This document shows positions 5,345-17,743 of a DNA stretch of 38,223 nt, in pieces. The notes below the pieces were generated by a model that had not been told where the DNA came from, searched no databases, and was given only the letters and a program-made list of their open reading frames with translations. A program made the translations under genes and the position numbers. This DNA is from Burkholderiales bacterium. Lineage in GTDB: Bacteria; Pseudomonadota; Gammaproteobacteria; Burkholderiales; Burkholderiaceae_C. The stretch's first letter is position 1; every line of letters begins with the position of its first letter. The stretch is taken from the NCBI GenBank assembly GCA_030603635.1, contig JAUVXK010000015.1, positions 1 to 38,223 on the forward strand, given 5' to 3'.

Positions 5345-6478
5345 ATGAAAACTCATCGCATTGCCGTGATTGCCGGTGACGGCATTGGCCAGGAAGTCAT
5401 GCCCGAAGGGCTGCGCGTGCTGGAGGCCGTGGCCTCGAAGTTCGACATCGGCCTGCAGTTCGACCACTTCGATTTTTCGAGCTGGGCCTACTACGAGAAG
5501 CACGGCCAGATGCTGCCCGACGACTGGAAGGACCAGATCGGCGGACACGACGCCATCTACTTCGGCGCCGTGGGCTGGCCCGAGAAAATTCCGGACCACA
5601 TCTCACTGTGGGGTTCCCTGCTGCTGTTCCGGCGCGAATTCGACCAGTACGTCAACCTGCGGCCGGCCCGGCTCATGCCCGGCGTGATCGCGCCGGTGGT
5701 GCGGCGTGATGGCAGTCCGCGCCAGCCCGGCGAGATCGACATGATGATCGTGCGCGAAAACACCGAAGGGGAGTACTCCAGCATCGGCGGCCGCATGTAT
5801 CCTGGGACCGAGCGCGAGATCGTGATGCAGGAAACGGTGATGAGCCGCCACGGCGTGGACCGTGTGCTGAAATTCGCCTTTGAACTGGCCCAAAGCCGCC
5901 CCAAGAAGCACCTGACCAGCGCCACCAAGAGCAACGGCATTGCCATCACCATGCCCTACTGGGACGAGCGCGTGGCCGAGATGGCCAAGGCCTACCCCGA
6001 GGTGTTCGTGGACAAGTTCCACATCGACATTCTCACCGCCCACTTTGTGCAGCGCCCCGACCACTTCGACGTGGTGGTGGCCAGCAACCTGTTCGGTGAC
6101 ATCCTGTCCGATCTGGGACCCGCCTGCACGGGCACCATCGGCATTGCGCCAAGTGCCAACCTCAATCCCACGCGGCAGCACCCCTCTCTGTTCGAACCGG
6201 TGCACGGTTCGGCGCCGGATATCGCGGGCAAGGGGATTGCCAATCCCATCGGCCAGATCTGGTGCGGCGCGATGATGCTGGACTTTCTGGGCCATCGTGA
6301 CGCACACGACGCCGTGCTGCGGGCCATCGAGGCGGTGCTGGAGCCCGGCAGTGGCGGCCCCCGCACACCGGATCTGGGCGGCAGGGCCACCACGGGTGAT
6401 GTGGGACGCGCCGTCGCTGGTATGATCCAAGCTACACCACCGGTTGCAACACAGAGGGGAATCCATGAACAAGGCTGA
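5345..6478 (+). CDS. Tartrate dehydrogenase / D-malate dehydrogenase-type decarboxylating dehydrogenase
   Basis: [29 protein letters not shown]...; isopropylmalate/isocitrate dehydrogenase fold; [28 protein letters not shown]. Confidence 0.88.
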
Positions 6479-6737
6479 ACTCGTCGAGCACATCGCCAGC
6501 AGCGCCGATTTGTCCAAAGCGGCGGCGGCGCGCGCCTTGGAAGCCACCATCCAGGCCATCAGCACCACCCTGAAGAAAGGCGGCACCGTGTCGCTGGTCG
6601 GGTTCGGTTCCTTCTCGGTCGCCAAGCGCGCGGCTCGCACGGGTCGCAATCCCCGCACGGGCGCTGCCATCAAGATCAAAGCGGCTAAAATTCCTAAGTT
6701 TCGTCCTGGCAAGGCGTTGAAAGACGCCATCAAGTAA
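6465..6737 (+). CDS. HU-family DNA-binding protein
   Basis: [32 protein letters not shown]...[31 protein letters not shown]; start overlaps the 3' end of the preceding gene by 14 bp. Confidence 0.95.
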
Positions 6738-6756
6738 CGGTTTTCCGGTTTCGGTG

Positions 6757-6832
6757 GGGTGCTTAGCTCAGTTGGTAGAGCGGCGCCCTTACAAGGCGTA
6801 GGTCGGCGGTTCGACCCCGTCAGCACCCACCA
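6757..6832 (+). tRNA. tRNA-Val (anticodon UAC)
   Basis: GGGTGCT...CTTACAA...AGCACCCACCA cloverleaf; anticodon loop CTTACAA; genome-encoded CCA. Confidence 0.97.
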
Positions 6833-6833
6833 C
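6788..6833 (+). repeat. Left att-type direct repeat (3' half of intact tRNA-Val)
   Basis: CTTACAAGGCGTAGGTCGGCGGTTCGACCCCGTCAGCACCCACCAC; 45/46 identical to 12687-12732. Confidence 0.95.
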
Positions 6834-6871
6834 AAAAACCTAATTGAATCAAGAAATTAGAAGAATTTGGA

Positions 6872-6890
6872 CCCCTCGTTTTGCAAGGGG
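6872..6890 (-). terminator. Candidate terminator of the tph operon
   Basis: - strand CCCCTTG-caaaa-CGAGGGG stem-loop, one G.T pair, followed by a moderately T-rich tract. Confidence 0.5.
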
Positions 6891-6919
6891 CATCCATTCT
6901 TGAGTCGCGATGATCCACT

Positions 6920-7933
6920 TCATTGACTTGCAGGCCCCTCAACAAAGCTGTCGGTATGGATGTCTTTGGGACTTGCTCCACAGGAGAGGGCGGTTTGTCT
7001 GACGGCTTCCACCATACCCGGAGAACCGCAGATGTAGATGATGTGGTTATTCAGGTCATTGAAGCGGCAGGCCAGCGCTTCATCGGCTCTGCCCACAAAG
7101 TAGCTGTTTCCATGGCTTGTTGTGGGTACAGTGTTCACTGCAGGCACGAACTGGAAGTCAGGCCAGAACTTCTGCCATTTTTCAACAGCTGACTGCATGT
7201 AGAGACCTGAAGGGTCACGCGCCCCCCATATCAATGCCAGCTGTCTTTGTGCTTTCTTTTTGAGCAGTCCATCGAGAATGGATTTGACGGGTGCAAAGCC
7301 TGTGCCACCCGCCACGAAAACCACGGGTCTGTTGTCTTGTTCATCTAGATCCACATGGCCATAGGGCAGTTCGATGTCCAGTGTGTCTCCTGGTTTGAGA
7401 GTTGAAACCCTGCTGCTGAAATATCCCCCTGGTACATGACGAATATGCAGGGTTACGCCGTCACTTTCATGCGGAGCGTTGGCCATGGAATAGCTCCGGG
7501 AACTGCCATCTTCCATGCGGATGAGTAGATACTGCCCTGCACGGAATTTGATCTTTTTGCCAGCGGGTAGCCTCAGTTGCAGCACCGATACATCTGGTGC
7601 GGCCAGTTCATTGCGGTAAACCCTGGCGGTGAAGGTTTTGGGGGCACCGTCTTCTGAGCGTTTCCAGCTGGTCGGCTGTATGACCAGGTCGGTGGATGGC
7701 TCGCATCCACAGAAAAGAACCTGTCCTTCAGCACAATTGTCGTGGCGGAAGGGGAGTGAGCCATGCGGCTGGATGTTGCCCTCGGTTACGCTGCCGGCAC
7801 AATTGCCACAGATGCCTTTGCGGCAGGAATAGGGCAGTGAGATGCCAGATTTGAGGGCTGCATCAAGGATGGTCTGTCCAGGTTGACAGACAAAGCTGAT
7901 GTCCGTGCCTTGAAGTTTGATCTGAAAGCTCAT
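6920..7933 (-). CDS. tphA1: Terephthalate 1,2-dioxygenase, reductase component
   Basis: N-terminal plant-type [2Fe-2S] (CRKGICGNC...C), FAD (RSYSMAN) and NAD domains; ATGA overlap with upstream tphB; tph gene order. Confidence 0.9.
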
Positions 7934-8889
7934 GTGAATATGGTCTGGTTTCCCATTAGCAGTGCCACGGTTCGTAGAACGGCTGTTGGTTCTGCAATCC
8001 CCTTGCCTGCAATGTCCATGGCGCTTCCATGACCTACACTCGACAACAGGACATCAGCTCCAATGGAAAGGGCGCTGGCCGCTTTGGGCGACAGCAGTTT
8101 GACGGGGATATGCCCCTGGTCATGAAAGATGGCCACGTACAGGTCATGCCTGCGGTCTGCCAGGGCAACGTCTGCACCCATGGGGCCGTCGATGTGGAGG
8201 CCATACTCCCGCAGTGTCTTGGCTGCCGGGACGGTGATGTTTTCGTCTTCTGTGCCAAAGAGGGTTCCCTCCGAGGCATGGGGGTTGATGCCAAACAGGG
8301 CCACCGAGGGTGTTTCGATGCCCAGCCGCTGACAGCCACGTATGCCTGCCTGTGTGGCTTTGATAACCAGTTCCGGTGTAATCCGGTTTAGGGCGTTCTG
8401 GACACTTTCATGCAAGGTGGTGTGAACTATCCTCAGGCCACCTCCAACCAGCATCATGAAGACTTCGTTCTCACTGACGTTGCAGACTCTGGCGACCAGG
8501 GATGGGTAGCCGCTGAATGGAATGCCTGCCCTGTGTATAGCGGTTTCATGGTGGGGGCAGGCCACCACTGCATCGAACATACCTTGACGGCAGGCATGGA
8601 TGGCTGCGGTGGCCGACTCCACAGTGGAAAGACCGGCGTCCGCGTCAATTACCCCTGGTTTGAGCTTTCCTGGCAAAGTGCCAGCTTCGACGTGACTGAC
8701 TTTTCCCAGAAGGTCTTGCAGTCCGCAGATGTTGGCAGCGTGCTCCAGTGCCTGAGCCGGGCCGAACAAGGTGATGTTGGACCTTTGTGGCTCAGGCAGG
8801 GCGCTCATGGCTTTCAGGGCAATTTCTGGCCCAATGCCATGAGGATCGCCCAAAGCCAGTGCTATGCGTCGGCTGACAGGTGTATTCAC
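7930..8889 (-). CDS. tphB: 1,2-dihydroxy-3,5-cyclohexadiene-1,4-dicarboxylate dehydrogenase (PdxA family)
   Basis: [32 protein letters not shown]..., PdxA-like fold; GTG start overlapping the tphA3 stop; sits between oxygenase subunits and reductase. Confidence 0.87.
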
Positions 8890-9350
8890 AGTGGGAGGAC
8901 CAGCAGGGTATCTACCACTGAGCTGTCACAAACGGCAATGCGCTCGGACAGCAGGAGTTGTCCGTCCTGCCTGATGAACCGGTCCAGATACACCCCGGTC
9001 GCGAAAACGTCGGTTTCGCCGGTGTGCATGATCCTAGCCACCATGAAAGGGGTCCGTGCTTGCGCCGTGCTGTCCGAGGCTTCTGTGATCAGGGGAATGC
9101 CGATCAGGTGGCGGTAGGTGTGCCTTTCGTAGATATTGGCTTCCCGAAGGGCGGAAACTCGGTCTGTCAGCATGTCCCGCGTATCCGCCCAAACCAGCCC
9201 TGCTGCCAGTCCCGCGCGATAGTTCTCGATGCTGGTCACCCGGTAGTTACACTCGGCTGTGAAGAAGCTGGGCCACCGCTCCAGATCATCGCTGTCAATT
9301 GCATCGGCGTAGGCGGCATTGAAGACCGCGATTTGAAGGAGGTCAATCAT
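8886..9350 (-). CDS. tphA3: Terephthalate 1,2-dioxygenase, small (beta) subunit
   Basis: [38 protein letters not shown]..., ring-hydroxylating beta-subunit fold; start trimmed to MIDLL, overlapping the tphA2 stop. Confidence 0.9.
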
Positions 9351-10581
9351 GGGCTGCCTCCATGTGATGGCGGTAAGCTTTCCAGAAACCACGAATTGAA
9401 GTTTCCGTGGCCCGGCCTTCACTGGAGCCAACGGCATCTCCGCCCATCTCGACCACGGCATCCAGGTCGCTGGCGCCGGCTATGCCACGCTGGACAAAAC
9501 CGCCGACAGCACCGTCTTCCATGGAAATGAACCCAGCCGGCCCGACCAGATTCAACTGTTTCAGCCTGATCTTGCGTTGTTCGTGGGTGTCATCGGCATA
9601 ACCCAAATAGGTCCAGTTCAGCTCGCTCTTCTCGATGCCTTTGGGTAGAAGTTGACGTATGGCTATGCAGTTTTGGATTTGCTGAACCACCAGACCGGGG
9701 AACACGGAGAGGATTTGCAGGGTGATGCCATCGTCGTACTCATGAAAGCCAGACAGCAGACTGGGATCTTTGAGGCGGTACCTTTCATTGTCAGATCGCA
9801 GAGCCTGTTCTTTGTATGAGTCGTCTTTGGCTGCAGGATCAATCATGGAGTAGCTGACATGGTGCCCTCCCGAACTGTCGACGATCACGCCGCCTTTCTG
9901 GGACAAGCGGTTGATTTCAAAGGTGGTAAAGAAGGTATGCAGCAGACTGGCGTGATAGCTGTCCTTCACATTTTCAAAGTAAAGCTTCCAGTTGTTGGGC
10001 AGTGCCTGGGTAAAGCGACCTATGACTTCCACTGGTTTGTGCAGTACTCGCTCTATGCGGGCTGCAATTTCTTCACCTAGGTACTCCTCGATGTCGGGGA
10101 CATCGTCAGAGAAACTGCCAAAAACCAGCCCACAGAAGGTAGTTGTCCTCAACCTTCGAGGGCTGTGCTCTTCCTTGCAGAAGGTGGGAGGCATTCCTCC
10201 TTGTCCTTTGACGCCCTGCTCAAAAGCCACGCCGGTCAGCTCTCCCTGGAGGTTGTAGCTCCATGCGTGGTAGACACACTGAAAGCTTTCCACCTTTCCG
10301 GTCTTCTCCAGCGCGATCAACGCGCCCCGGTGGGCGCAGCGGTTTTCAAAAGCGTAGATTTCTTCATCTTCACCGCGAACCACCACCACTGGGGTTTCCC
10401 CAACAAAGGTGGTGCGGTAACTGCCAGTTTCTGGCAGTTCGACTTCCAGACAGAGGTAGTTCCAGACTGCACCTCTGAAGATGCGTTCCTGCTCTTGCTG
10501 GTGGGTGAGGCTGTCCCCGTAGATCGCGTAAGGAATGCGAGTGTTGTCTCGCCGCTTCCATTGAATGGTCTGCGTTTGCAT
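9343..10581 (-). CDS. tphA2: Terephthalate 1,2-dioxygenase, large (alpha) subunit
   Basis: Rieske [24 protein letters not shown] (C-x-H-x17-C-x2-H) and DSYHASLLH Fe site; start trimmed to MQTQTIQW; sequence closely resembles Comamonas TphA2 as recalled. Confidence 0.92.
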
Positions 10582-10589
10582 GTTTGGCC

Positions 10590-11561
10590 TTATTCCAATG
10601 TCACCTTGGCTGTTTGAATAACTTTTTTCCATTTTTCAGACTCGGCTCTGATGAACTGTCCAGTGCGCTCTGGCGACCAGCCCGCTGGTTCAGTGCCCTG
10701 TTCTTCAAACCGTTGTCTTACCTCGGGGGAAGACAGGGCTTCGGCAATCTGGGACTGAAGCCTTGCTGCCGCTGCAGCAGGTGTTCCGGGAGGCGCTACA
10801 ACCGAGAAGAAGGTTACGGCCTGCATGTTGGGCAGGCCCTGTTCGGCAAAAGTGGGAATGTCGGGCAGGATTTTGGACCTTTTCTCACCTGCGACAGCAA
10901 AGATGCGGATGCTGTTGGAGTTGTGATGGGGCGCAGACGAGCTGATGTTGTCGAAAAAGACGTCCACGTTTCCAGCAATCAGGTCCACCAGTGCGGGTGC
11001 TGTGCCCCTGTATGGAATATGGATCATTTCAGTGCCTGTGAGCTGCATGAACAGGGCCGCAGTCAGGTGGGAGGTGGAGCCGTTACCCTGCGATGCCACA
11101 CTGACTTTGCCTGGATTGGCTTTCAGGTAGGCAATGAGTTCCTGCAGGTTCTTGACCGGCAGCTTGTTGCTGACACCCAGGATGTTGGGCGCTGTGGCCA
11201 GAACAGTGACTGGAACCCACTGGGTGGGATCAAAAGACAGTTTGCTGTATAGATGGTGGTTCACTGCTATCGGGCCAGGTGGCGAAGCCAGTACGGTCAG
11301 ACCATCAGGTTCAGATCGGAATACTCGCTCTGCACCAATGTTGCCGCCAGCACCCGGCCTGTTGTCCACCACGACCCCGCCTGCATAGTGGGCACGTATT
11401 TTTTCCGCTACGATTCGTGGCAAGATGTCTGCGGTGCCTCCCGCCGGAAAGGGAACGATAAAGCGTAGGGTATTGCCGCTTTGTGCCCATACGCTCCCGC
11501 CCATCAAGGTCAAGGCCGCGCCTTGAATGACGGTACGACGACGGATGGATGTTGGGTTCAT
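10590..11561 (-). CDS. tphC: Tripartite tricarboxylate transporter substrate-binding protein (Bug family), terephthalate-binding TphC
   Basis: [27 protein letters not shown]... signal peptide, [15 protein letters not shown]...[18 protein letters not shown] upstream. Confidence 0.9.
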
Positions 11562-11621
11562 GCATGTCTCCTGTGTTGTTGGAAGACGGATTATTGGAAG
11601 CAATCAAGTGCCCCTTCAAGC

Positions 11622-11663: not shown

Positions 11664-12455
11664 ATGAGTCATATGAGTCATGAGCGCGACAGAGACTCGG
11701 TGGTTTCCTTGCGCAAGGGACTTCAGGTACTGACCTCTTTTAGCAGGCAGTACCCGAGATTGACCATTACCGATGTGGCCCGGCTGACGGGTTTAAGTGC
11801 TGCATCTGCTCGTCGCTCACTGTTGACCCTGTACGATTTGGGTTACCTTCATGGGGATGGCAAATTCTTCTGGATGTCACCCAAAACATTGCTGGTGGCG
11901 AACGCCTTTATTGCTTCCAGGCCATTGCCAGCCATAGCCCAGCCACTGCTGGATGCTCTATCTGAAAGGACCAGGGAGTCGGCATCACTGGGGCAGTTGC
12001 TGGATCACGATGCCATCATCGTAGCCCGATCCACTGCGAGGCGCAGTTTGAGCATTGGCCTGGGCATAGGGTCCCGGCTACCGGGCTACTGCTCTGCGAT
12101 AGGTCGTGTCTTGCTGTCCAGTCTGCCAATGGCAGAGGCTGAAGCCAAGTTGCTGTCAATGGACAGAAGAGCACTGACACGCAATACGATCACAGATTTG
12201 ACCCAGATCATGGACTTGCTGGAGCGGTGCCGAGAAGTAGGGTGGGCAGAAAGTGATGAAGAGATTGAGATGGGGGTCCGCTCTATGGCTGTGCCTGTCC
12301 GCGACAGGTCAGGCAATGTAGTGGCTGCCATGAGCATTGCTGTCAGGGCCGAGCGGATGAGTATGGCTGAATTCCAGCGGTCTTTTATAGGACAGCTGAC
12401 GCGGACCCAGAAAACGCTGGAAGCCAGTCTGTTTCCGGTTTCAGCTGAAAAGTAG
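11664..12455 (+). CDS. tphR: IclR-family transcriptional regulator TphR
   Basis: SLRKGLQVLTSFSRQYPRLTITDVARLTGLSAASARRSLLTL HTH plus IclR effector domain; divergent from tphC. Start may be 11664 or 11673. Confidence 0.88.
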   Translation: MSHMSHERDRDSVVSLRKGLQVLTSFSRQYPRLTITDVARLTGLSAASARRSLLTLYDLGYLHGDGKFFWMSPKTLLVANAFIASRPLPAIAQPLLDALSERTRESASLGQLLDHDAIIVARSTARRSLSIGLGIGSRLPGYCSAIGRVLLSSLPMAEAEAKLLSMDRRALTRNTITDLTQIMDLLERCREVGWAESDEEIEMGVRSMAVPVRDRSGNVVAAMSIAVRAERMSMAEFQRSFIGQLTRTQKTLEASLFPVSAEK

Positions 12456-12555
12456 CGCGGGCAGAGCCTGTGCTCTTCAGCAGATCGTTACAATCCCCAC
12501 ATTCGGCTGGTTCTATTCAATGTCTTGCCCAGTATCAATCTTGGTCTTCCTGGAT

Positions 12556-12638
12556 GTTGGTAAATCATCTGAGCCAAAAGTTGGTAAGATTTCAGGCTAT
12601 CCACCAAATTGTTCGCCTCGGGTGGTAGAAAGTTGGTA
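12556..12638 (+). repeat. GTTGGTA short direct repeats, candidate integrase arm-type sites
   Basis: GTTGGTA at 12556-12562, 12580-12586 and 12632-12638; variant GGTGGTA at 12621-12627. Confidence 0.5.
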
Positions 12639-12671
12639 GAGGGTGTAAGGTGTTGATTTCTAAGGAAGTGC

Positions 12672-12689
12672 GATACTCTTGATACTCTT
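12672..12689 (+). repeat. Tandem 9-bp repeat GATACTCTT x2 abutting the right att repeat
   Basis: GATACTCTTGATACTCTT; second copy overlaps the first 3 nt of the direct repeat. Confidence 0.85.
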
Positions 12690-12732
12690 ACAAGGCGTAG
12701 GTCGGCGGTTCGAACCCGTCAGCACCCACCAC
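12687..12732 (+). repeat. Right att-type direct repeat (displaced 3' half of tRNA-Val)
   Basis: CTTACAAGGCGTAGGTCGGCGGTTCGAACCCGTCAGCACCCACCAC; differs from the left copy only at T-loop position 59. Confidence 0.95.
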
Positions 12733-12737
12733 TCCCA

Positions 12738-14848: not shown

Positions 14849-14887
14849 CCATGAAAAAGCCCGACACGTGATCGGGCTTTTTCATGG
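14849..14887. terminator. Bidirectional rho-independent terminator
   Basis: CCATGAAAAAGCCCGA-cacgtga-TCGGGCTTTTTCATGG, 16-bp perfect arms between convergent units. Confidence 0.92.
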
Positions 14888-14923
14888 GTGAAAGCTTGTC
14901 GTCTAATGCGACTTCTGCTGCAC

Positions 14924-16297
14924 TCAGTCGGTCGCGGTCACAGTCACGGGCAACGTTTTCGATTGGTCTGTTTCGGACGCGGTTGCGGTTCGAAGCCGGT
15001 CCTGTATGCGCAGGCCAATGCCATCTTGCGGTCGTTGTGGCAACCGCTTCGCGATCAGCTTGGCGGCGAGTTCCGGGTCGGGTAGCTCGATCGCTGAGTC
15101 GATCAACAGCAGGTCGACCAGATCGCGCTGGGCGTGGCTGCCCCCCATGCGATGGATGACCGGTCGGATCGCTTGCAATTGTGTCACCGCCGCTGCTGTC
15201 CGCCCTTGTTGGCGCTCCTGCAGGGCACTCAGCAAAGGCTCTCCCACGTCCCGCGCCAAGGACGTCAGGTCGCTGGGGGAGGCGGTGCTGTTCTGGGCTG
15301 TCAGCCACTCACGCGCCTTCGCCGACCGTCCGCTGCCCACCCACGCCAGCATGGCGTGGAAATCATTGAAGGTGTAATGACCTGGTTCTGCCTGAGCCTC
15401 CCAGTCGTCGGCGAGAGCGGCCCAGCGTGGGCCGATGTCGACACCCATGAATTCCAGTCGCCATAGCATGGCCGAGGCGTCGACCAGATCGACCATCGCA
15501 GTGGATCGACCGCCACGGATGTAGGTGTCGTAGAGGTGGAGGGCGTCGTCGAGTCGCCCCAACTCCAGGTTGAACAACGCCCAGTGCCAGGCGTTGTGTA
15601 TCGCCAGAAAATGGTTGTCGTTCCAGTGGGGTTCTCGCTCGCGCATCCAGCGGATGCCATCGGCAGACCTGCCCTGCATTTCGAACACGTGGGTGACGGC
15701 GTGGTGTGCCCAGGCGTCAGCCGGCTCCAGCTCAAGGGCCTTGAGGCCAGCCCGTTCGGCTTCTTCGTATTGTCCGCATTCTTCAAGGCCGAAGGCCCAC
15801 ATTCCCCACAGCGCGTGGCTGCCCGGGTCGTTTTCATCCCATGCGGGCAGGGCCATGGCTATGCGGTCGCGCAACTGCTTGCTGTCACCCCGCAAAAAAT
15901 CGATGTAATGCCCCGCTTGCAGGGCCAAGGCATCTTGCGGCCACTCCCGACTCAGGGTCAGAAGAAGCCGGCCAGCCTGTTGCCAATGACCGCAGTTGAA
16001 GGCCACAAGGGCTTCGAGATGCAACCGTTCGCGCCGATTCAAGGCAAGCTTCCGCAGGGTATTCGCATCCTGCTCGACCACCGTTCGAGCCGCCGGCTCG
16101 GTGCTCAGGGCGTGCAGCCAGCCGTGCATCAGCCAGCCCATGGCGAAATCGGGTTGCTGCTCCAGCGCGGGGGTGATCAGTCCGACGGGGTCGCCCTGAC
16201 AGCAGTGGAAGGCCCGCAGTGCCTGGGCGTAGGCCGCGGTTGCTTCAGGGTGGGCGCCGGTGCAGTCAAGACCGGCGTGGTCCAGGGTGTGGTTCAT
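14924..16297 (-). CDS. Tetratricopeptide-repeat protein (TTC38-like)
   Basis: Helical repeats; HALWGMWAFGLEECGQYEEAERAGLKALELEPADAWAHHAVTHVFEMQGRSADGIRWM...HNAWHWALFNLELGR. Confidence 0.85.
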   Translation of the reverse strand: MNHTLDHAGLDCTGAHPEATAAYAQALRAFHCCQGDPVGLITPALEQQPDFAMGWLMHGWLHALSTEPAARTVVEQDANTLRKLALNRRERLHLEALVAFNCGHWQQAGRLLLTLSREWPQDALALQAGHYIDFLRGDSKQLRDRIAMALPAWDENDPGSHALWGMWAFGLEECGQYEEAERAGLKALELEPADAWAHHAVTHVFEMQGRSADGIRWMREREPHWNDNHFLAIHNAWHWALFNLELGRLDDALHLYDTYIRGGRSTAMVDLVDASAMLWRLEFMGVDIGPRWAALADDWEAQAEPGHYTFNDFHAMLAWVGSGRSAKAREWLTAQNSTASPSDLTSLARDVGEPLLSALQERQQGRTAAAVTQLQAIRPVIHRMGGSHAQRDLVDLLLIDSAIELPDPELAAKLIAKRLPQRPQDGIGLRIQDRLRTATASETDQSKTLPVTVTATD

Positions 16298-16388
16298 GAG
16301 GGGCTCCTAAGGAGAACAGGGTGCTTGATGGGTGGTCGGGATGCTAGATACACTCGCCGCTTTGCACTGCAGTCTTTTCAGACGCCGT

Positions 16389-17459
16389 ATGGTCGATTCC
16401 GCCAGCCAAGACGTTTCTGAGCTTGATCGCCCGGTGTCGGTGCACGTCCTGGTGACGCCGGAGGTGACGGCATCGGTGGCGCTGGGCCTGCTGGACCTGT
16501 TCCATTCGGCCGGACGTGACTGGGGGTTGATCGTCGATGGGCAGCCGGGGCGGCCTCTGATGGCGCCCCGGCTGGTGTCGGCCAGCGGCGATCCGTTGAC
16601 GGTGGCCAACGGCGTCCGGCTCTGTCCCGATGCGGCGCTCGCCGACCAGCCGGTACCGGACGCGGTGTGCATCCCGGAATTGTTTCTGGCTCCCGGTGCG
16701 TCGCTGCATGGACGTTACGAGGCGGAGTGTGTCTGGCTCAGGCATTGCCATGCCGCCGGTTCCCTGGTCAGTGCGGCCTGCTCGGGCGGCTTGTTGCTGG
16801 CGCAGGCCGGTCTCTTGGATGGTCACGAGGCCACGACCCACTGGGCCTATTGCGAAGCCTTGGCCACGCACTTCCCCAAAGTCCGCCTGCGGCGACAGCG
16901 GTCGCTGGTGGCTTCTGGCGAAGGCCAGCGGCTGGTCATGGCTGGCGGAGGCACCTCATGGCAGGATCTGGGGTTGTATCTGGTGGCGCGTCTGGTAGGG
17001 GTGGAAGCTGCCATGCAGTTGGCGCGCATCTATCTGATCGACTGGCACCACTCCGGGCAGCAGCCATACGCCCGGTTGGCCGCGAGCCGGCAGACCGATG
17101 ATGCTGTGGTCACCCGGACCCAGCTATGGGCGGCGGAGCATTACCAGCAGCCCAATCCGGTTCGAAGCATGGCCGAACTCAGCGGGCTGTCGGAGCGTGC
17201 CTTTGTGCGGCGGTTTCGTCAGGTGACGGGTCTGTCGCCGTTGGCGTATGTGCAACACATCCGCATCGAGGAGGCCAAGCAGTTGCTGGAGGCGACCACG
17301 TGGCCGGTGGAAGACATCGCTGAATCGCTTGGCTATGAGGATGCAAGCTTTTTTTCGCGTTTGTTCAAACGCGAGGTGCAACTCACGCCTGCCACTTACC
17401 GACGCAAGTTCGGGCGTCTGCGCGAGGTGCTGCAGCAGGCTCGGCCACCGGTCGCCTGA
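16389..17459 (+). CDS. GlxA-family (DJ-1/PfpI + AraC) transcriptional regulator
   Basis: N-terminal amidase-like domain (SAACSGGLLLAQAGLLDGHEATTHWAY), C-terminal AraC HTH (SERAFVRRFRQVTGLSPLAYVQHIRIEEAKQLLE). Confidence 0.92.
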   Translation: MVDSASQDVSELDRPVSVHVLVTPEVTASVALGLLDLFHSAGRDWGLIVDGQPGRPLMAPRLVSASGDPLTVANGVRLCPDAALADQPVPDAVCIPELFLAPGASLHGRYEAECVWLRHCHAAGSLVSAACSGGLLLAQAGLLDGHEATTHWAYCEALATHFPKVRLRRQRSLVASGEGQRLVMAGGGTSWQDLGLYLVARLVGVEAAMQLARIYLIDWHHSGQQPYARLAASRQTDDAVVTRTQLWAAEHYQQPNPVRSMAELSGLSERAFVRRFRQVTGLSPLAYVQHIRIEEAKQLLEATTWPVEDIAESLGYEDASFFSRLFKREVQLTPATYRRKFGRLREVLQQARPPVA

Positions 17460-17473
17460 AGGTCCACGGCCCG

Positions 17474-17743
17474 TCAGGGGTGCATGCGAACCGGGTGTTC
17501 GTCGAGCCATTCCGCGTCTTCCACGTTCAGCTGTTCCGGATCGAGTGTGGGAGGCGGTGTTCTGGGCTGGTAATGCAGGGCCTGGGCCACCCAGGGCCCG
17601 CCGGTCAGGGCAGGCCCGGTCGTGACCAGTTGCTGCTGGATCATAAAGAACGCCATGCAGGCGAACATCACGTGATGCAGCACGCCGAAGGGAACGACTG
17701 CGTTGTCTTGGGAACGCGATCTCAGGGTCTGCAGGTGTCGCAT
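17474..17743 (-). CDS. Hypothetical small protein with one hydrophobic segment
   Basis: MRHLQTLRSRSQDNAVVPFGVLHHVMFACMAFFMIQQQLV..., 89 aa; no family recognised. Confidence 0.5.
   Translation of the reverse strand: MRHLQTLRSRSQDNAVVPFGVLHHVMFACMAFFMIQQQLVTTGPALTGGPWVAQALHYQPRTPPPTLDPEQLNVEDAEWLDEHPVRMHP

Follow-up and report, generated by a model that had tools for sequence, protein, structure and literature searches.

Three described kinds of element come nearest to the locus analysed here. CIMEs are decayed conjugative or mobilisable elements whose cargo is flanked by attL and attR and includes no integrase or transfer genes, with an empty site found in a relative (PMC5704250). Grounded (defective) prophages, in which excision is blocked by loss of the recombinase or by damage to the att sites, provide a place for acquired metabolic genes (PMC6379469). 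In Dehalococcoides, 15 cases of ssrA genomic islands without an integration module are on record (PMC3146451), with catabolic cargo between direct repeats of an RNA gene.

We analysed a terephthalate (tph) island on a contig of 38,223 nucleotides (hereafter, the window) from a Tepidicella-like bacterium. It shares with CIMEs the cargo flanked by attL and attR, the lack of integrase and transfer genes and the empty site in a relative, and differs from them in that its attachment arms match a phage integrase family and lesions in its att sites probably stop excision. In its manner of working, now or in the past, the island resembles a CIME; full membership is doubtful because functional att sites are required and lesions are present. 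With grounded prophages it has in common the loss of the recombinase, the damaged att sites and the metabolic cargo, but it keeps attachment arms only and not one phage gene. The Dehalococcoides ssrA islands resemble it in cargo, repeats and missing integration module; they use serine recombinases, whereas the tph island points to a tyrosine integrase at tRNA-Val with arm-type and predicted IHF sites. What the tph island adds to these kinds is that surviving attachment arms can reveal which integrase family served an island that has lost its integrase. Literature searches gave nothing specific on tph islands in Tepidicella or on tRNA-Val islands in Delftia and Comamonas.

The tph island and its insertion site

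A 46-bp copy of the 3' portion of tRNA-Val(UAC) bounds the 5.9-kb island at each end, and the two copies are direct repeats with 98% identity (attL, 6788-6833; attR, 12687-12732; both on the plus strand). The tRNA-Val(UAC) gene itself, the integration target, is intact (6757-6832, plus strand; ARAGORN), and its 3' part forms the left core. A genome of the same genus (G107) has the empty site: the alignments of the two flanks overlap there in exactly one 46-bp core, present as a single uninterrupted copy. Because the flanks meet in this one core, the tph island is, on the genome comparison, a real insertion at tRNA-Val.

All six island genes are of tph type (Pfam, NCBIfam). Those for a tphA1-like reductase, a tphB-like protein (PdxA fold), tphA3-like and tphA2-like dioxygenase subunits and a TctC-type binding protein occupy 6920-11603 on the minus strand, with the operon order tphA1-B-A3-A2-like, and an IclR-family regulator gene (tphR-like) lies at 11664-12455 on the plus strand. 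There were no integrase or transfer genes inside the island and no phage gene is left in it; a search for integrase remnants by tblastn within the island gave matches at chance level only.

The nearest tph cluster in the sampled genomes (G058) is 73% identical and has the same gene order. Neither arms nor a tRNA were found near it, and for this reason we read the arms and the tph cargo as having separate histories, the arms being no part of the tph cluster itself. It is possible that the cluster was inserted between the arms only once integration had taken place. Among plasmids, the island as a query retrieved only diverged tph-type genes, and the arm segment only tRNA cores. Elsewhere in the window's genome (G000:C167:7359-14973) there is a second, diverged tph-like cluster (about 66-71%), with pieces on both strands. 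A separate stretch of about 2.6 kb after tRNA-His (14859-17498 of the window) is missing at that place in G107 and in a further genome, G204, and is possibly another insertion.

Attachment arms on the two sides of the island

The tphR-like reading frame stops at 12455 and the next one belongs to a PpiD-like gene; the interval 12456-12736 has no coding sequence. The initial annotation had described the ~230 bp between tphR and the right repeat as non-coding, with three exact copies of GTTGGTA, one variant and a tandem GATACTCTT whose second copy enters the att core, and every part of this description was confirmed. GTTGGTA starts at 12556, 12580 and 12632, and its variant, GGTGGTA, at 12621; the copies of GATACTCTT start at 12672 and 12681, the second ending within the 46-bp repeat that begins at 12687. 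The repeats are also more frequent than local composition predicts, a point on which that annotation had let its proposal depend. In dinucleotide-preserving shuffles of the 231-bp segment, GTTGGTA was expected 0.028 times; 1.1% of the shuffles had any 7-mer three times, and 0.12% had a 9-bp tandem.

To describe the arm independently of the window, a sequence-only model (R1) was built from an alignment of 15 P arms that included neither the window nor any part of the tRNA core. Most of these arms came from phages or genomes with the tyrosine integrase family that targets tRNA-Val, and three of the 15 from genomes without the integrase. R1 matched the plus strand at 12621-12672. Its best match in the window (12622-12671) scored 29.7 bits (E=1.6e-8), with the next at E=0.16 when filters were off, and in the whole 2.9-Mb genome this segment was the only match at E<=1e-3. 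From its match to R1, we identify 12621-12672 as the P arm in an attachment site of lambda style.

In most other arms, GTTGGTA-like sites precede the core by 59-60 and/or 46 nt. In the window, arm-type site 1 (GGTGGTA; 12621-12627, plus strand) lies 66 nt before the core, or 57 when the 9-bp duplication discussed below is subtracted, and arm-type site 2 (GTTGGTA; 12632-12638, plus strand) lies 55 nt before it, or 46 on the same basis; the distance of site 2 is exactly 46 in Delftia, Variovorax, L205 and L190. Only these two copies occupy the conserved positions. The outlying GTTGGTA copies on the plus strand at 12556-12562, with a putative role, and at 12580-12586 fall beyond the conserved arm and have no clear counterpart in other arms (L205 has GCTGGTA at a place roughly similar to that of 12580). 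The view of these repeats as arm-type sites stands for 12621 and 12632 and is putative for 12556 and 12580.

The tandem GATACTCTT had been taken for a recognition repeat of the integrase as well. It is a 9-bp tandem duplication at the core edge (12672-12689, plus strand) that lengthens the arm-to-core spacing: the distance from TTGATTT to the core is 25 nt in 15 of the 15 other arms measured and 34 in the window. Because this spacing is invariant elsewhere, the arm alignment identifies the tandem as a duplication private to this lineage and not as a recognition repeat.

On the other side, the best match in the window to a profile of P' arms, again built without the window, is a remnant of the inner P' arm (6833-6882, plus strand; E=0.009, which is modest when taken alone). 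It begins at the first base after the tRNA, and includes an IHF-consensus site, AATCAAGAAATTA (6847-6859, plus strand), at the position that such a site has in prophage attL sites. The P arm has an exact match to the consensus at 12646-12658 on the minus strand (TAAGGTGTTGATT on the plus strand), inverted relative to the site at 6847. The IHF consensus WATCAANNNNTTR was taken from PMC7581858. It has four exact matches in the 38 kb, and two of them flank the two cores, inverted to each other; a match in the P arm was present in 20 of the 22 arms counted, the window's arm among the 22. We predict that the motifs at 12646 and 6847 are IHF sites, where IHF would bind.

Compared with a lambda-type attP, the locus has outer arm-type repeats distinct from the core (GGTGGTA and GTTGGTA), and predicted IHF sites, inverted, in the expected place between arm-type sites and core. 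It departs from such a site on the P' side, a lambda-type attP having arm-type sites on both arms. Family prophages have inverted arm-type sites on the P' side (TGCCAACC or TACCAGCC), mostly 90-94 nt past the core, and neither occurs in the island at 6831-7069. Both arms lie at the place and in the orientation predicted for an element inserted at tRNA-Val.

The inner motif GTAAGNNGTTGATTTNTANGG was considered as an integrase-specific signal and dropped, with more than 120 viral contigs among the matches listed, mostly without an integrase of the family detected nearby. By itself GTAAGNNGTTGATTTNTANGG is weak evidence, because it is widespread in viral contigs and fits the IHF consensus; the GTTGGTA sites, the spacing and the core carry the case. 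The motif is very common in viral contigs (L073-L192, among the matches listed) and is also found near a DnaA-box-like TTATCCACA in several Comamonadaceae contigs (L305-L310). These viral and family copies may be IHF sites of phages and replication origins. A further box, AGTAGAAT or GTAGAAT, is conserved ~20-40 nt before the first GTTGGTG-like site in the P arms of L197, L198, L200, L201, L203 and L204, and could be a promoter's -10 element, from which transcription would cross the core and enter the integrase gene in the circular form only.

The cognate integrase family

A blastn search of phage genomes matched the arm segment plus core in the Pseudomonas phages vB_PaeM_USP_18 and USP_25, where the match is an attP directly upstream of a site-specific recombinase gene, and in phage 8P the same arms adjoin the integrase. 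The P arm, core and inner P' arm of these three attP sites align with the island ends; the phages keep the integrase and the 25-bp spacing, both of which the island lacks, as it does the outer P' sites of the family prophages. Relatives of the USP_18-type recombinase are located at tRNA-Val in several prophages.

Scanning a collection of species genomes for the P arm plus core returned nine genomes (Delftia acidovorans, D. tsuruhatensis, Comamonas odontotermitis, Variovorax boronicumulans, Hydrogenophaga aromaticivorans, T. baoligensis and three MAGs), and the integrase encoded in five of them shares 58-68% identity with its counterpart in prophage L042. Both element ends were on one contig in D. 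tsuruhatensis and V. boronicumulans, with the integrase adjoining the tRNA. The cognate integrases are phage-type tyrosine recombinases; the two that were scanned matched PF00589 only in Pfam, and no P4-type model in Pfam or NCBIfam. Among the six tyrosine recombinases of the window's genome none is close to the cognate family.

These results bear out the earlier proposal that the recognition DNA has outlived the integrase gene, with arms found by a core-free model and an island holding no integrase remnant. The proposal would have fallen had the segment never occurred with an integrase; it does so at tRNA-Val genes of other Comamonadaceae and also in Pseudomonas phages that have been isolated. 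An integrase with matching arms elsewhere in the window's own genome was not found. The segment is very probably the P arm of the attachment site of a phage-type tyrosine integrase that targets the 3' half of tRNA-Val(UAC), with arms that have outlasted the integrase.

The initial annotation had named a P4-type integrase, and integrases of this type commonly use tRNA genes. Such an island needs a P4-type integrase beside the tRNA; the tph island has none, and the integrases that adjoin these arms belong to the USP_18 family, which is phage-type and not P4-type, so it is extremely unlikely that the arms belonged to that type. It had also offered a tRNA-derived duplication as an alternative, in which the repeats are copies of the D-arm (AGTTGGTAGAG) and not integrase sites. 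The local match to the 5' half of the tRNA has a score of 11, reached by 0.8% of shuffles, and the only other plus-strand copies of GTTGGTA in the window are the D-arms of tRNA-Val (6771) and tRNA-His (14781). Against this, other elements and phage arms have the same repeats, the site at 12632 included, equally far from the core, inverted copies exist on the P' side of family prophages, and the remaining arm (GTAAG...TTGATTT) has no tRNA counterpart. A duplication of this kind is not needed to explain the repeats and we hold it to be highly improbable, while the D-arm is possible as a very ancient origin of the arm sites. Short repeats are common in intergenic DNA, and those 3' of tphR might be ordinary regulatory or chance repeats, a reading whose likelihood is close to negligible given a model match at E=1.6e-8 that is unique in the genome and falls at the exact predicted place.

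Probable exchange between species and proposed history of the island

The island is shared with G204, which appears to be Tepidicella baoligensis B18-50. The two copies differ at 32 of 5,854 positions (99.45% identical), with zero differences in either arm, whereas ppiD is 85% identical and most flanks 80-93% (about 86% overall). Because the island is far more alike than its flanks, it most likely moved between the two species, or reached both from a common source, after their split. On the right side the identity does not end with the core but extends to 12876, interrupted by a single difference (12733), in a stretch where G107 differs repeatedly. Since site-specific excision and reintegration would stop at the core, this shared tract suggests homologous recombination in the flank as the simpler reading, one that also fits the lesions common to both island copies. 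In about 1 kb of DNA to the left of the tRNA (5456-6482), G000 and G204 have just five differences, although the DNA next to it is about 89% identical, which suggests a separate recombination tract. The interval between that tract and the tRNA (6483-6756) is not nearly identical; more than one exchange may therefore have taken place beside the island.

The recent transfer between species, the identical arms in both, and the retention of both cores, a complete-looking P arm and both predicted IHF sites would also suit an island that is still mobilisable in trans, as a cis-mobilisable element whose arms are recognised by the integrase of an incoming tRNA-Val phage, which excises the tph unit. 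We regard this as unlikely: the outer P' arm-type sites are gone, the otherwise invariant 25-bp spacing is now 34, no close integrase of the family was found in G000 or G204, and the tract shared beyond attR to about 12876 is better accounted for by homologous recombination.

Under the preferred reading, that of arms left behind by a phage-type integrase, the ancestral attP would have had the order of the family: outer GTTGGTA-like sites, an IHF site, the tRNA-derived core, an inverted IHF site, inverted arm-type sites, and the integrase gene directly behind. The founder, which may have been a phage, a satellite or a conjugative element, most likely carried or acquired the tph cluster and integrated at the tRNA-Val of a Tepidicella-like ancestor. 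The integrase, all phage genes and the outer P' sites would then have been lost, which left the P arm, the two cores and the inner site of the P' arm in place, and the 9-bp duplication would have moved the P-arm sites away from the core. With neither outer P' sites nor an integrase, the unit has probably lost the ability to excise and to move by itself; its later spread between species would have gone via homologous recombination. Such a history offers a sequence-level route for the entry of terephthalate (PET monomer) catabolism into a bacterial lineage. Since a model of the arms does not need the tRNA core, it allows a systematic search for islands that lack an integrase.

Among 401 sampled genomes of the family, the P arm stood directly before a tRNA-Val core with a close integrase in G220, G352, G129, G266 and G147, and with no close integrase in G000, G204, G143, G318 and G160, about half of the arms found; the assemblies are incomplete, and absence of the integrase is a lower-grade result for fragmented genomes. 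In Hydrogenophaga aromaticivorans (G406, C23:290444-335920; L257, L280-L283), 45.5 kb lie between a tRNA-Val with a P' arm and an attR copy with a P arm. The genes scanned in this island are metabolic or regulatory (a TPP enzyme, an aldehyde dehydrogenase, an FMN-dependent dehydrogenase, transporters and a CoA transferase), and no integrase of the family was found in that genome. One tentative idea, to which we give a low probability, is that the arms of this single phage integrase family at tRNA-Val repeatedly come to enclose catabolic gene sets of Comamonadaceae, which then move in trans by the integrase of incoming phages. If true, catabolic islands, the tph island and the 45-kb Hydrogenophaga island among them, would have phages as their helpers. 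Two of the sites that have a P arm at tRNA-Val but lack a close integrase are those of G143 (L344, L345) and G160 (L343); the interval in G160 is only 3.1 kb (C1 4824920-4828030), without an integrase, and has one long open frame of ~840 codons on each strand.
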